A stretch of DNA of 64,000 bases from IMG/VR virus record IMGVR_UViG_3300046684_000205, positions 29,479 to 93,478 of that record; one strand, given 5' to 3'. This DNA is from a virus. Position 1 is the first letter of the stretch. Each line of letters opens with the position of its first letter. Both the position numbers and the translations under genes were made by a program. Shown here piece by piece: positions 51,685 through 58,775 of this stretch. A model generated the notes under the pieces. It had not been told where the DNA came from. It saw nothing but the letters and a program-made list of their open reading frames with translations, and made no database searches.

Positions 51685-51713
51685 GTGTATGGCAAACTAT
51701 TTCCAGATGTCAA
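51685..51713 (-). promoter_or_regulatory. promoter after the terminase gene
   Basis: Minus strand TTGACA (51708-51713) and CATACA/ATACAC (51685-51691), 16-17 bases, with AGTTTGC before the -10 as in the early promoters. The TGA of the large terminase gene lies in the -35. Confidence 0.75.
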
Positions 51714-53407
51714 TGCTTTACGCGGAAGCTGGCGAACAGCGGCACGCCGGTGAACGCGATCTCGCGCGAGGCGGTTGCCATCAGCTGTGACGCCACGTGC
51801 AGATAGCCCAAGGTGTGCATGAAGTGGTCGTTGCCTTCCTTCGACTTGGTCCAGGTGTAGTAGAGCTCCTGGTGTTTGTCGAAGGCCTGGGTGCGCTTCA
51901 TGTCGACCATGTGCAGCTTCCACAGCGTGTCGGTATGGTCGCCCTGCTCGACCCAGCTGATGGCGCCGGTCTTGTACATGTTCATCACCTCGTCGAAATT
52001 GACGTCGCGATGGATCTTGGCCTGGTTGATCGGCAGCTTGCCCTCGGCTTCGTTCTTGTCGACCATGACGATTTCATAGGTCGCCAGCTTCAGGCTGCTG
52101 TTGTAGACGGCGCCATACAGGTTCTTGTCCTGGGCCTGCATCCGATGCACCAGGTTGGTCTCGGGGAAGGCGTCGACCACGGTGATCAGCACGCGCCACT
52201 TCGCCGCCAGCTCGCGCCGGCGAAGCTCCAACTTGGCAAGTGGTACCTGCTCGCGGTAGCAGACCAGTAGCCGGTTGTCCAGCGTGCGCCGGCCGATCGC
52301 GATGTGGCAGATCTGACCGACGTCGATGCCCATGGCGTGCAAGTCGCCGGTGTGCAGGCTGCCGTTGGTATATTTGCACTTCTCGACGTCGGCGTCGGTC
52401 AGCTGGCTGCTGCCGGCGTCGGCCGTCTCGCCCAGCGCCTGGTTGACGAATTCCGCCCAGGTCTTGTACTTCGTGATCTCGAGGATCAGGGAAGGGACCG
52501 TGACGATCTCCGGCACCTCGAACGGCGTGACGTAATAGCCGATCGCCTCGAACTGGTCCTGCGGGTTTTCGCAGACCCACTCGCGGTGTTCCGGCGCCAG
52601 GCTCGGCTCCTCGTCGCAGGCCGGGCAGTGCAGGCGCGCCTCACGCCAGCGCAGCTGGTCGACGTTGTGCTTGTTGATGTCGCGGAACTCGCCCGCGTAA
52701 TCCGGAATCTTGACGTGCTTGTGGAAGCTGGGGACGAACTGGGCGCCGCAGTGGTTGCAGGTGCAGGCGCGGCGCATGCGGCGCGCGGCCGCCATCTCCA
52801 GCGCGATGCCGCGGCCATCGGTCGTCGGCGTGCCGAAGCGCCGCGTCAGCTTCCATTTGCTGTGCTTGATGCGCGACTGGAACTGGGCAAGGGTGTCCGG
52901 GTCCGAGCGGTCAACCTCGTCGTGGATCAGCATGTCCGCCGGCACCGACAGCGCGGTGGTCGAGCCGGAGCAGCCGCGCATGTACAGCAGGCTGGTGCCG
53001 ATCGACTTGATGCTGGCGTTGTTCAGGTCCTTGTCGATCGACTCGCGCAAGTCGGGCGACTCGTCGATGATGGGGTCGAGGCGGGTCTTGGTGAAGTTGA
53101 CGGCGTCGTTGGCGAACGGCAGCGTCATGATCACCGAGAAGTAGGGCATCACGCGGCTCACCGCCAGCGCGTAGCGCGCCATGCACTCCGACATACCGAC
53201 CTGGGCGCATTTCTGGACATACACCGTGCGGCTGGTGTCGGAGATGATGTCCTTCTGGAACTCGTGGTCGATGAACGAGAAGCGGTCGCCCTTGAGGAAG
53301 GTCTTCTCCTCGAGGTAGCGCACGACGTCATTCAGGTCGTAGCTGTCGAACAGCGCCTGCTCGAGGCGCTTCAGGTGCTCGAGCAGTGCGGGATCGGCGT
53401 GGCTCAC
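51710..53407 (-). CDS. terL: terminase large subunit (gpA-like)
   Basis: The 565-residue packaging motor shows an N-terminal ATPase with a Walker A variant (KCAQVGMSE), Walker B MLIHDEVD and a zinc-binding pair (CTCNHC, CPACDEE), then the C-terminal nuclease with DVGQ (about 340) as first acidic motif. This pattern matches lambda gpA-type (Phage_GPA) terminases, which cut cohesive ends. GTG 53407 overlaps the preceding stop; the longer reading upstream is noncoding. Confidence 0.88.
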   Translation of the reverse strand: MSHADPALLEHLKRLEQALFDSYDLNDVVRYLEEKTFLKGDRFSFIDHEFQKDIISDTSRTVYVQKCAQVGMSECMARYALAVSRVMPYFSVIMTLPFANDAVNFTKTRLDPIIDESPDLRESIDKDLNNASIKSIGTSLLYMRGCSGSTTALSVPADMLIHDEVDRSDPDTLAQFQSRIKHSKWKLTRRFGTPTTDGRGIALEMAAARRMRRACTCNHCGAQFVPSFHKHVKIPDYAGEFRDINKHNVDQLRWREARLHCPACDEEPSLAPEHREWVCENPQDQFEAIGYYVTPFEVPEIVTVPSLILEITKYKTWAEFVNQALGETADAGSSQLTDADVEKCKYTNGSLHTGDLHAMGIDVGQICHIAIGRRTLDNRLLVCYREQVPLAKLELRRRELAAKWRVLITVVDAFPETNLVHRMQAQDKNLYGAVYNSSLKLATYEIVMVDKNEAEGKLPINQAKIHRDVNFDEVMNMYKTGAISWVEQGDHTDTLWKLHMVDMKRTQAFDKHQELYYTWTKSKEGNDHFMHTLGYLHVASQLMATASREIAFTGVPLFASFRVKH

Positions 53408-53643
53408 GGGTTGTCCTTGTCTGGCGGCGGGAAGTGGTAGCGCCCGGTCTTTTCCAGCTGCTCCAGGTAGTGCCAGATCGTCGTCAAGCGGTAGATGCGC
53501 CGCATACGGTGCCAGAGCGTAGCGCCCAGACACCAAGTCAGCAGACAGGCCGCGCCCAGTACGGCGGCAAGCAGCAGGGTGCCGCCCAGTGCCATGGCCA
53601 TATAGCAACAGAAGGTCGCGGAAGCGACAAGGAAGTGGATCAT
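53404..53643 (-). CDS. small membrane protein, 79 aa
   Basis: Two adjoining hydrophobic segments (FLVASATFCCYMAMALGGTLLLAA and GAACLLTWCLG) followed by a basic, aromatic tail. It is located between the putative terminase genes. Function unknown. Confidence 0.6.
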   Translation of the reverse strand: MIHFLVASATFCCYMAMALGGTLLLAAVLGAACLLTWCLGATLWHRMRRIYRLTTIWHYLEQLEKTGRYHFPPPDKDNP

Positions 53644-55211: not shown

Positions 55212-55241
55212 TTGTCCAATATCTCAGAAAAAACCCATAAT
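55212..55241 (+). promoter_or_regulatory. promoter of the right arm
   Basis: TTGTCC (55212-55217), 18 bases, CATAAT (55236-55241), followed by a leader with AGGAG before ATG 55305. Reasonable -10, moderate -35. Confidence 0.6.
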
Positions 55242-55304: not shown

Positions 55305-56039
55305 ATGAAAGCCACCTTTACCCGCAACATCGCCATGTCCGACATGTTCCGCGCCCTCGCTGGCGACGATCAGGCGCAATTCGACATCATCGCGTGTACC
55401 GTCTACAGCGCCGCCTATTCCATCATGCAAGCCGGTAACAAGACCCAGTTTGCCAAGCTGGCGGCCGATGCGCAGATGTACGGCGCCGATACGCAAGACG
55501 CCAACAAGGCGTGCAAGGATGCCGTAGGCGCAAAGACCCTGAACGCGGCCGCAAAGCACTTCAAAAAGATCTACGCCGCCGTGCTGGCGACGCTGGCGGC
55601 CTTTCCCGCACCGGAACTGGTCAAGGACTTGCCGCGCGGCAAGGATGAGCAGTTCGCCATTCTCGATCCGCTGGCAAGCGATTACGCGGACGCGTTTACG
55701 GCCAACTTTACCATGCTGATGCTGGCTCCGGCGCGTACCGAAGAGGAGGCAGCGCAAGCCAAGGCCAGCCGCGAGGCCAAGAAAGCCGAGAAAGAGGCCG
55801 AGGCAGCCAAGGCCGAGCGCGAGGCCGAGCGCGAGGCGCGCAAGGCGCTGGATGCGGCGGTGGCGTCGCGGGTTGCCGCTGCCAACGAACCGCCCGTTCT
55901 GGCGCGCACGCTGGCCGATCTGCTGCTGGCGGGGGCGCTGGACACCGAATCTGAAGCGCTGCTGATCGAAGCTGTCAAGGCGCGCGAAACCGCGCTGCTG
56001 CTGGCGCGCGTCGCCAGCGCCGAGCCTGTCGCCGCCTGA
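55305..56039 (+). CDS. hypothetical helical protein, 244 aa
   Basis: ATG 55305 has AGGAG 8 bases upstream. The product has a globular helical N-half and a long charged coiled coil (about 147-190, Glu/Ala/Lys/Arg), then a helical end. No enzyme motif. It is the first gene of the right arm and is followed directly by strong hairpins, so it may be abundant or tightly controlled. Unknown function. Confidence 0.7.
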   Translation: MKATFTRNIAMSDMFRALAGDDQAQFDIIACTVYSAAYSIMQAGNKTQFAKLAADAQMYGADTQDANKACKDAVGAKTLNAAAKHFKKIYAAVLATLAAFPAPELVKDLPRGKDEQFAILDPLASDYADAFTANFTMLMLAPARTEEEAAQAKASREAKKAEKEAEAAKAEREAEREARKALDAAVASRVAAANEPPVLARTLADLLLAGALDTESEALLIEAVKARETALLLARVASAEPVAA

Positions 56040-56715
56040 TCGTCGCGCCCCTGCAGGGGCGCTATCCAAAGCCCTGTGACAGGGCTTTGGATAGCGTCAC
56101 CGTGCGCGCCTGACAGAACGCTCAGGAGTTCCGCGCATACCGTCGCTTTGGTCCGCTTCGCTGGCGTCATTCGCCACCGTCGCGCCAAGTCTTCGGGCCC
56201 TCTTTAACAATGAGCCAATAACCAGTACCGCCGAATCCCTGAATTCGTCGCGGGCGCGCTTCGCATCGTCTTTTCGATAGCGTCGTGCGCTGCGCTTCGC
56301 CCTATATCGGACTCGGCGACTGTGCGGCCATCAGCATAAAACGAATGGCGCTGGACGTTTCCAGCGCCTACGGAATCAAACGAAAACCCATACGAAGCGA
56401 TAACATGCGCCGGGATATGGGCAATCTGTGCGCGCCTAGTAACTGCGGCGGAAAGCGAAAATAACCCTTGTATCAGCCGGGAATGGTGGACTGATAAGCT
56501 GGGCGAGATAAGCCGGTACAGGATGAGGACGGGCGATTCTGGAGGAAAACCTTAATCTGGGCGTAGAACGCCCAGCCATGATGAATGGAACCGCTTTGGC
56601 AAGCGGTGGCGCCAGTTCCGGCGCGAATGGGAACAAGGTAATACCCTGCGCATTCGGTATCGGGTTGCTACGCGGTATCGAGTGCGCAGTCATTACCTTG
56701 GGCGGAGTATTGACG
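56040..56715 (+). ncRNA. candidate large structured RNA or leader with many hairpins
   Basis: No convincing gene in about 675 bases. Plus-strand hairpins: 56045-56062 (palindrome); 56060-56096 (17-base perfect stem, loop TGA); 56104-56136 (GCGCG CCTGA arms); 56162-56176; 56347-56368 (GGCGCTGG/CCAGCGCC); 56557-56575 (CTGGGCGT/ACGCCCAG); 56590-56607 (ACCGCTT/AAGCGGT); 56615-56633 (GTTCC/GGAAC); 56634-56700 (9-base outer stem, then a 16-base inner stem with wobble pairs). CTCTTTAACA (56200-56209) resembles the rrn boxA antitermination site. It could be a noncoding RNA or a long leader for the gene at 56716. Confidence 0.5.
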
Positions 56716-57015
56716 ATGAGAAAGACGCTGTCGGTTCCAATAAAAACGGAGCTAAAAATTAATATCGCGGATTATGCGCGTAATTTACCAAAACCGCATC
56801 CGTGCATTATCCCGCAACCCGTAATTGAAACCCGGTCGAAACTGTTCGATCCGGAGATTGTGCAGGTCCCGAAGCGTAAAAAGCCGGGGCCAGTCAGGCA
56901 GGTGGCAAGAGGCACGCTGAATATCGCGATGCCGGCAATCCGGAAAGGCGAGAAGAATCGCCCCGACAAATCGCAGCAAAAAACAAAATTAACTTTCGCG
57001 TGGAGCGCAGCATGA
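56716..57015 (+). CDS. basic hypothetical protein, 99 aa
   Basis: ATG 56716 (GGAG 8 bases upstream) is preferred to ATG 56578, whose extra codons are the hairpins. The protein is Lys/Arg/Pro-rich (VPKRKKPGPVRQVARG) and looks capable of binding nucleic acid. Its codon use is more AT-rich than nearby genes, hinting at a different origin. Unknown function. Confidence 0.55.
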   Translation: MRKTLSVPIKTELKINIADYARNLPKPHPCIIPQPVIETRSKLFDPEIVQVPKRKKPGPVRQVARGTLNIAMPAIRKGEKNRPDKSQQKTKLTFAWSAA

Positions 57016-57188
57016 AACTGACCTTATACCTTGTCACCATTCCGACCCTGATCGCCCTCGATGGCCATCTGGAACACCTGCCCAGCTACAGCACCGCACT
57101 GCGCGCGCTGGTCTGGATCATCATCGCCGGCAACGCCCTGATGCTGTACAGCGGCATCTGCGAACACGCTGCCCAGGAGCCAGCATGA
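57012..57188 (+). CDS. small membrane protein, 58 aa
   Basis: ATG 57012 overlaps the previous stop. Two hydrophobic segments (TLYLVTIPTLIAL and ALVWIIIAGNALMLYSGI). Function unknown. Confidence 0.6.
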   Translation: MKLTLYLVTIPTLIALDGHLEHLPSYSTALRALVWIIIAGNALMLYSGICEHAAQEPA

Positions 57189-57385
57189 CTTATACAGCAC
57201 GCAAGGCGCTCGCACGCGACAACGTGGCCAAGCCGTTCGTCGTCGAGCACGAATCCGGCCGCATCGCGGCCGGCAAAGACACCTGGTTCGAGGCATGCGT
57301 CGAGCGCAACCACCTCAACCAGCTGGAGACGCTGGCTCAGCCTGCCCAAACCGAGCCATCGGGCATGATGGCGTCCACGCGCTGA
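57185..57385 (+). CDS. hypothetical protein, 66 aa
   Basis: ATG overlaps the upstream stop by four bases. Short alpha/beta product with no known match. Its last 49 bases overlap the end of the minus-strand gene (57,337-57,385), so the two transcripts converge. Confidence 0.55.
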   Translation: MTYTARKALARDNVAKPFVVEHESGRIAAGKDTWFEACVERNHLNQLETLAQPAQTEPSGMMASTR

Positions 57386-58071
57386 GCCTCGGCATTGAAA
57401 ATAAACGCCTTCGCGCCAGCCAGCACCGCCTTGATGCGCACCCGGTAGTCATCCGCCACGTGACAGGCTACCGGGATGTCCATCCACGCCTCGTCGTGCC
57501 AGTGCCACTCGCGGCCCGGAATCGCCCTGGGGCGCGCCGAGCGCTTCACATGCTCGGCCTTGGGGACAGGCACCAGCTCCGGCTTCAGGGTTGCCAGCTC
57601 GGCCAGATGTGCCGCACGCATTTCGCGCTGGTGCGACTCCAGCTTGAGGACATACCCAAGGTCTTTCAGGTAGAAGTCCTTCGCCAGCGTCTCCCAGTCC
57701 TTGCGGCAGGCATAGCTGGAAATATGTGCCCGCGTGCTCAGGGGATGCGTGTACAGGTTGCCGCGCCGGCCTTCGGCATAGCGCAGGCGCTTCAGCCTGG
57801 TCGGGTACAGGTTGGCCGGCGAGAAGTCCGCCGGATCTGCCCCAAGCTGTGTAATCGGGTACAGCGGCCAGTTGCCGTGAATCAGGCACCACGCAATCGA
57901 GGTGCCATGGATCTTCACGCCATCGAACAGCGTCACAATCTTGTAGCCATCCTTGCTGGTCAGCAAGGCCGCGGTGCCCGACGCAAGCTTGCGGTACAGC
58001 TTCGAGCCTTCCAGCACGAAGTACTTGTGAATCTGTTCAGGCGGCAGCACGGAATTCAGGTTGGTATGCAT
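57337..58071 (-). CDS. degenerate HNH-fold (AP2-type) protein
   Basis: The 244-residue protein has the scaffold of phage HNH endonucleases (SKLYRKLASG, GYKIVTLFDG, AWCLIHGNWP, SPANLY) but lacks the key His and Asn residues: the usual HxNG...DNR becomes TQLGADPADFSPANLY. The rest is charged and ends with VWAG. It is the only minus-strand gene of the right arm, with GAGGAG before the ATG and a separate promoter. A DNA-binding regulator that has lost its nuclease activity is plausible; this is inferred. Confidence 0.6.
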   Translation of the reverse strand: MHTNLNSVLPPEQIHKYFVLEGSKLYRKLASGTAALLTSKDGYKIVTLFDGVKIHGTSIAWCLIHGNWPLYPITQLGADPADFSPANLYPTRLKRLRYAEGRRGNLYTHPLSTRAHISSYACRKDWETLAKDFYLKDLGYVLKLESHQREMRAAHLAELATLKPELVPVPKAEHVKRSARPRAIPGREWHWHDEAWMDIPVACHVADDYRVRIKAVLAGAKAFIFNAEAQRVDAIMPDGSVWAG

Positions 58072-58096
58072 GGTGGCTCCTCAGGGTTGAGCACGA

Positions 58097-58125
58097 ACTA
58101 TATCACAGAATTTTGTGTTTCCCAA
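58097..58125 (-). promoter_or_regulatory. promoter with operator-like dyad
   Basis: Minus strand TTGGGA (58120-58125), 17 bases, TATAGT (58097-58102). The spacer holds CACAGAATTTTGTG (58104-58117), a near-perfect dyad, where a bound repressor would block RNA polymerase. Confidence 0.68.
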
Positions 58126-58586
58126 GTGGTGCGCCATAGTGCGACCAGCCTGAAAAAGTAACTGATCATTTCCGTAAAAATTTACCTCCAAAAAACTGAA
58201 CGATGGGGGGTAAAACTTTTTTTTTCGCGTATACGTTTTCATGAACTTATTTCGTCCCTATGAAAAAACGCGTTTGGGGGGGGGGGGGGGTTTTCTGGAA
58301 AACACCCTCCTTTTCTGAAAATGACCCCGGTAATTCACAAAAAACACGCGAAATTACGTAACCGGAAATTTTCGGTTTCTGAAATAGTCCATAAGTGAGC
58401 CTGAAGTTATTTTCAAAAATAAATTACAAATTGTCTCAGGAGAAACGTTTTAAATGAATTCACGAATTTCTTTGGTGCAACATTCTGGATTCCACGAATT
58501 TAACCCATGAATTCACGACATTAAATCCCAAAAAACGGCCTGCCCCGTCCAAACCTCTGTTTTCGTGGATTTTCAACAGGATTACC
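58126..58586. other. AT-rich intergenic region with G15 tract and short repeats
   Basis: No clear gene apart from an 18-codon leader candidate. Notable elements are GGGGGG and a T-run at about 58,205-58,220; a run of 15 G at 58276-58290; ATGAATTCACGA twice (58454-58465, 58507-58518); and CACGAATTT twice (58461, 58493). The low GC and repeats could mark an origin or a control region. Confidence 0.5.
58454..58510 (+). CDS. possible 18-codon leader peptide
   Basis: ATG is preceded by AGGAG 11 bases upstream, and the frame ends at TGA 58508. It overlaps both direct repeats. Length and spacing make this weak. Confidence 0.25.
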   Translation: MNSRISLVQHSGFHEFNP

Positions 58587-58775
58587 ATGCTCAAGCTGCC
58601 CAAGCTGCCCGACCTCTTCGCTCCTCCTCCGTTGGCCCAGGTCCGCGCGCAAACGATTCGCGACCTCGAGCTCGCCCTCCACGATGCCCAGCTCCAGCTG
58701 GAGCGCCAGCAAGCCGACGTCGCCCGTCTCCAGACCAGCCTCAACCGCCTGAAAGCCGAACATGCGCACTCGTGA
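58587..58775 (+). CDS. small coiled-coil protein, 62 aa
   Basis: AGGA precedes the ATG. After a proline-rich head comes a coiled-coil helix (RDLELALHDAQLQLERQQAD). Function unknown. First of a run of small overlapping genes. Confidence 0.65.
   Translation: MLKLPKLPDLFAPPPLAQVRAQTIRDLELALHDAQLQLERQQADVARLQTSLNRLKAEHAHS

Follow-up and report, generated by a model that had tools for sequence, protein, structure and literature searches.

The window analysed here is a stretch of 64,000 nucleotides from an IMG/VR phage record (bases 29479–93478 of 93,478 in total, 93.5 kb), and its positions 56040–56715 raise the question of whether a region without an apparent gene encodes a large folded RNA and, if so, how such an RNA would be made and used. 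An earlier note, made from the sequence alone, had described about 675 bases without a convincing gene as a candidate new structured RNA, pointing to strong hairpins, a long stem with wobble pairs and a boxA-like sequence; all of these were found where it had placed them.

Genomic setting and search for known genes or RNAs

The leftward gene block of the window ends with the terminase large subunit (51710–53464; ~30% identity to Vibrio phage SHOU24-type phages) and then a helix-turn-helix gene, followed by a divergent region and the rightward genes. Gene 1, as the first of the rightward genes is termed here (55305–56039, + strand), encodes a predicted all-helical protein of 244 aa from no known family and always lies directly 5′ of the RNA element, whereas the 3′ side is occupied by a small basic ORF of 99 aa (56716–57015, +). 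Since replication-type functions (exonuclease, primase, DNA polymerase and ligase) are encoded among the rightward genes elsewhere in the window, this arm was inferred to be early. The AF2 model of gene 1 (pLDDT 70) had no fold match in the PDB and gave no function, and the structure prediction for the small basic ORF (pLDDT 62) revealed none either. A candidate sigma-70-like promoter 5′ of gene 1 (TTGTCC-18-CATAAT; 55212–55241, +) rests only on a consensus scan, which returned two promoters against 1.6 expected, and the bases around it are only partly kept in relatives.

Further 3′, a small ORF with a hydrophobic segment (57000–57188, +) is weakly conserved and replaced in some relatives. An HNH-endonuclease-like ORF (57337–58071, −) is convergent to the RNA operon and found in the same place in most relatives; its product resembles phage HNH endonucleases only weakly (PHROG) and matches nothing in Pfam. 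A run of ~14 G (58277–58290) lies within an AT-rich intergenic stretch (58090–58590), which may contain a second rightward promoter or an origin.

No reading frame across the region is conserved as a protein, so the description of these bases as lacking a convincing gene stands and no overlapping conserved protein refutes the RNA. Open minus-strand frames (237 codons in L003) were rejected as a gene, as they are not conserved at the protein level. The whole window was compared with all Rfam 15 families, a library that covers the known large RNA families, and no match was obtained anywhere in it at the gathering score; the comparison with GOLLD, ROOL and other large RNAs suggested by the earlier note thus yielded no known family. 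Permissive thresholds, applied to the region and several relatives, returned nothing convincing, with matches such as those to microRNA and sbcD models attributed to chance. ARAGORN detected no tRNA or tmRNA in the window. A CsrA-sponge reading, based on GGA motifs, was dropped after a rough count by eye.

Fold, strand and distribution of the element

The whole 676 nt folded with a z-score of −5.9 relative to dinucleotide shuffles. As folding energy alone is no proof of an RNA, relatives were sought, and seven further phage records were found by gene 1 and DNA patterns, with a wider ring obtained by terminase alignment. The seven carry the same element at the same place, giving eight close phages including that of the window, in which the intergenic element spans 456–731 nt (~660 nt in the window phage) with 53–87% sequence identity over aligned bases. 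Gene 1 shares 47–71% identity among aligned relatives, and the order gene 1–RNA–small basic ORF is common to all eight, with extra ORFs intervening in two. When L001 (1788–6238) is compared to the window, the terminase is 97% identical, gene 1 only 67% and the RNA 62%, a contrast that in these sequences would suggest either fast evolution or recombination at the RNA locus.

Base pairs were preserved through changes on both sides in 22 of the 43 pairs of the 3′ module (56555–56704; 97% of cells paired), 20 of the 34 pairs of the 5′ module (56043–56146) and, among six relatives, 21 of the 54 pairs of the middle segment (56376–56556). The covariation score was reached by none of 500 shuffles in each of the three segments, column-shuffle z-scores on the + strand were −16, −13 and −13.5, and sliding the partner by 1–3 columns reduced pairing from 95–97% to 21–45%. 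Because each structure was inferred from the alignment on which it was then tested, the fraction of paired cells is inflated, whereas the count of both-side changes is hardly affected. When L039 and L041 were added, the latter rose to 25 of 43 pairs in the 3′ module, and at least 10 helices are supported by covariation overall. The stems are thus conserved in relatives with compensatory changes, as the earlier proposal of a structured RNA would demand, and with the absence of a conserved protein the generic criteria for a structured non-coding RNA are met. On this comparative evidence an RNA fold is shown to be under selection in at least 10 phages, and the evidence for a folded RNA is strong.

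Just 3′ of the gene 1 stop codon lie two overlapping hairpins: the small H1 (GCGCCCC/GGGGCGC; 56045–56062), which shares part of its 3′ arm with the 5′ arm of H2, and H2 itself (56060–56096; −30.8 kcal/mol, z −9.1), which forms the 5′ end of the RNA and folds with a 3-nt loop as the 17-bp perfect stem already noted, with both-side changes in 12 of 16 aligned pairs. In 11 of the 14 relatives examined, the two overlap by 4–14 nt and cannot form at the same time; they may constitute a co-transcriptional switch. They are followed by the two-part stem H3 (56102–56138), which covaries and has a loop (CANAACG) kept in most relatives, then by the boxA and a domain of nested helices supported by RNAalifold (56212–56335; conserved TCGCCCTATACCG), and by a hairpin, GGCGCTGGACGTTTCCAGCGCC (56347–56368), with pairs kept despite changed sequence in most relatives. 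The variable middle domain (56376–56545) covaries and is wholly absent in L001, where both ends are kept. The 3′ module comprises the covarying stems Pa (56557–56575), Pb (56576–56588; invariant loop GATGA) and Pc (56590–56607; CCGCTTTGGCAAGCGG), an H-type pseudoknot (56609–56634) and the long terminal hairpin Pe (56634–56700; z −9.1), the stem of which is variable while its GTTGNTACG loop is conserved in most. With ~28 pairs, Pe exceeds the 25 first counted for the wobble stem. In the pseudoknot, GCGCC (56609–56613) pairs with GGCGC (56620–56624), and GTTCC (56615–56619) with GGAAC (56630–56634). The second stem occurs in five sequence versions across all eight close phages, every one perfectly complementary (GTTCC/GGAAC, TTTCCC/GGGAAA, GTCCC/GGGAC, TTTACC/GGTAAA and TGTCC/GGACA), and three further versions were seen by eye in L033, L039 and L041.

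The wobble pairs, previously taken to hint at selection on RNA structure, were found to support that argument and also to give the strand. The ratio of G-U to A-C cells in the 3′ module is 28:1, and the + strand was therefore assigned as the RNA; the count uses a structure predicted on the + strand, which favours this outcome. The terminal hairpin folds at −42.1 kcal/mol on the + strand and at only −29.3 kcal/mol on the complementary strand, where G-U wobbles turn into A-C, and both this hairpin and the whole element fold better as + in all eight relatives. H2 is nearly symmetrical and folds about equally on both strands, and the nested domain at 56212–56335, the weakest part in this respect, is slightly better on the minus strand (z −4.5 on + vs −6.8 on −); the strand assignment consequently depends on the 3′ half and on the element as a whole.

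A covariance model of the 3′ module (R1), built from the eight close phages only, found one copy in the window's own record and matched the held-out phages L039 (E 3.2e-20) and, equally, the near-identical records L040 and L041 (E 2.1e-16), against a noise level set by a chance match in L009 (E 0.07). The E-values are rough, as calibration was short. Confident carriers thus number eleven records, including the window's. The L040 record also contains, ~900 nt 3′ of the RNA, a sub-threshold type II hammerhead ribozyme match (114–175, −; 29.6 bits vs gathering 37).

The wider ring of terminase relatives includes L033, L042–L045 and L051. Where these reach the region, they have gene 1 in the divergent form found in more distant phages (E 8.5e-6 in a profile match), followed by a non-coding stretch of 600–900 nt with hairpins near its start and, where the contig reaches, a long hairpin at its end. 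These stretches look like diverged versions of the RNA, with homology unproven and weak model support: the R1 match in L033 (E 0.036) is cut by the contig end, and matches of model R2 in L033, L042 and L051 (E 2e-4 to 6e-3) are no more than suggestive, given that the H2 palindrome scores 7e-3 on its reverse strand as well. Scanning IMG/VR once more with a relaxed pattern added no carriers, and pattern matches in L009 and L014 were rejected as coding DNA matching by chance. Searching phage and plasmid collections with the region DNA gave no match, and pattern and protein scans of GTDB genomes found no carrier; the latter used exact or peptide patterns, and divergent copies could be missed. These queries identified no carrier among cultured phages or prophages, and the carriers are apparently a group of related, uncultured phages.

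boxA, proposed expression and rival explanations

The boxA-like CTCTTTAACA (56200–56209), present as noted earlier, is the single exact copy in the window, and about one copy with one mismatch is expected by chance. As such a sequence is common enough by chance, the evidence for a boxA lies in its conservation. The full rrn-type boxA, CTCTTTAACAAT (56200–56211, +), begins ~160 nt into the element and is kept in close relatives, with TTTAACAA in seven of eight and TAACAA in all eight. Boxes of variable form were seen by eye at the same position in distant relatives, TCTTTAACAA in L051, CGCTCTTTA in L042 and CGCTCTTA in L041, the last of which we take to be the lambda form. Except for its first base, the window boxA matches the published gamma-proteobacterial consensus GYTCTTTAANA (PMC5725501), and the sequence criterion of a Nus antitermination element is met, with function inferred only. 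A boxA ahead of long non-coding RNAs has precedent (PMC7862264, PMC5725501).

The sequence data establish a conserved fold and a boxA sequence; everything beyond this we infer. Our preferred reading, in which we place about as much belief as doubt, is a large structured non-coding RNA of the + strand that is co-transcribed, protected by boxA, released by RNase III and trans-acting, its expression, processing and function all being inferred. The RNA and gene 1 would share a rightward transcript begun in the divergent promoter region, close to where the replication-gene arm starts. As in rRNA operons, the ribosomal-type boxA would recruit NusB/NusE, allowing RNA polymerase to pass through the long untranslated stretch without being terminated by Rho. 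Long hairpins at both ends of an RNA are RNase III-like substrates, and because H2 and Pe resemble these, RNase III is proposed to cut both and free the RNA. Once freed, the RNA may function in trans, whether as an RNP or as the folded RNA itself, with gene 1, the constant neighbour, as the likeliest partner protein on adjacency alone. A bolder version, which we offer only tentatively, sees here a new class of large phage RNA that would exploit the rRNA production line (boxA-Nus and RNase III-type hairpins) and act early in infection as an RNP or RNA assembly, working in trans and in partnership with the gene 1 protein. Several observations weigh against a trans-acting RNA. Pe abuts the ribosome site of the next gene, a placement that would fit a cis element too. 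At the RNA itself neither an intrinsic terminator nor a promoter of its own was found, and L001 shows that the RNA can do without the middle domain. The boxA could also mean that antitermination is itself the function.

The latter is the main rival, and a serious one that remains possible: a giant processive-antitermination element, comparable to lambda nut, HK022 put or the rrn leader, in which nascent boxA RNA stays on the polymerase and acts in cis only, with no free RNA. It would account for a boxA that is fixed in position while its form varies (L051, L042 and L041), for the placement near the start of the rightward arm with its replication genes, and for the variation in downstream genes from one relative to another, which a general antiterminator could tolerate. 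However, the best conserved module lies some 350–500 nt 3′ of boxA, a conserved convergent HNH gene follows within ~1.5 kb downstream, and the element is far larger than known signals of the nut, put and rrn kind, which measure ~35–120 nt. We regard as improbable a cis-regulatory leader, either a riboswitch or an autoregulated 5′ UTR, of the small basic gene: the last hairpin does stop just before its ribosome-binding site and the eight close phages all conserve its basic product, but the RNA does not require it, since in several carriers the gene lies further away or went undetected. Other ORFs lie between it and the RNA in L001 and L028, unrelated ORFs occupy the position after the RNA in L039/L041, and the RNA persists in carriers among the records in which the small ORF was not detected (L033 and L039–L051). 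Palindromes acting as DNA, in a replication origin or as protein-binding sites, are suggested by the near-perfect palindrome H2 with its equal folding on both strands, and are already largely refuted by the wobble asymmetry, the + strand advantage of Pe and the whole in all eight relatives, and the covariation of a pseudoknot and nested helices.

Comparison with known systems

GOLLD is a homo-multimeric RNA cage that is often encoded near tRNA islands. The window RNA resembles it in being large, ornate and phage-encoded, and differs in that no tRNA occurs in its 64 kb, no Rfam covariance model matches it, it adjoins gene 1 and it carries a boxA. The 3′ part of GOLLD is best conserved and its upstream part less so (PMC12286853), a pattern shared by the window RNA. 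ROOL, with an example of 659 nt (PMC12286853), is likewise phage-encoded, of similar size and built of multiple helices with a pseudoknot, but neither its sequence nor its Rfam model matches and its gene context differs. For HEARO and OMEGA guide RNAs there was no Rfam match either, and with only a weak phage HNH match and no Pfam match in the neighbouring protein, the IscB-like criterion is not met.

Rrn leaders and CRISPR arrays, in which boxA serves NusB/E-SuhB antitermination, share with the element a boxA ahead of a long non-coding RNA, whereas the RNA downstream is here neither rRNA nor a CRISPR array. Lambda nut and HK022 put share the phage location in a putative early arm and a boxA-type sequence, but the window element is far larger and has no recognisable boxB/N pair.

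Size and style in common with GOLLD and ROOL, without detectable homology, place the element as a new family within the large phage RNA kind, with the boxA, as judged from sequence, as a distinguishing feature. To our knowledge, only a few large structured RNAs have no assigned function, and what GOLLD and ROOL do has yet to be established. An independent family whose neighbour gene is constant and whose boxA is clear offers a handle on phage RNA roles, by way of the gene partner, Nus factors and RNase III, and also bears on how phages express long untranslated RNAs past Rho.
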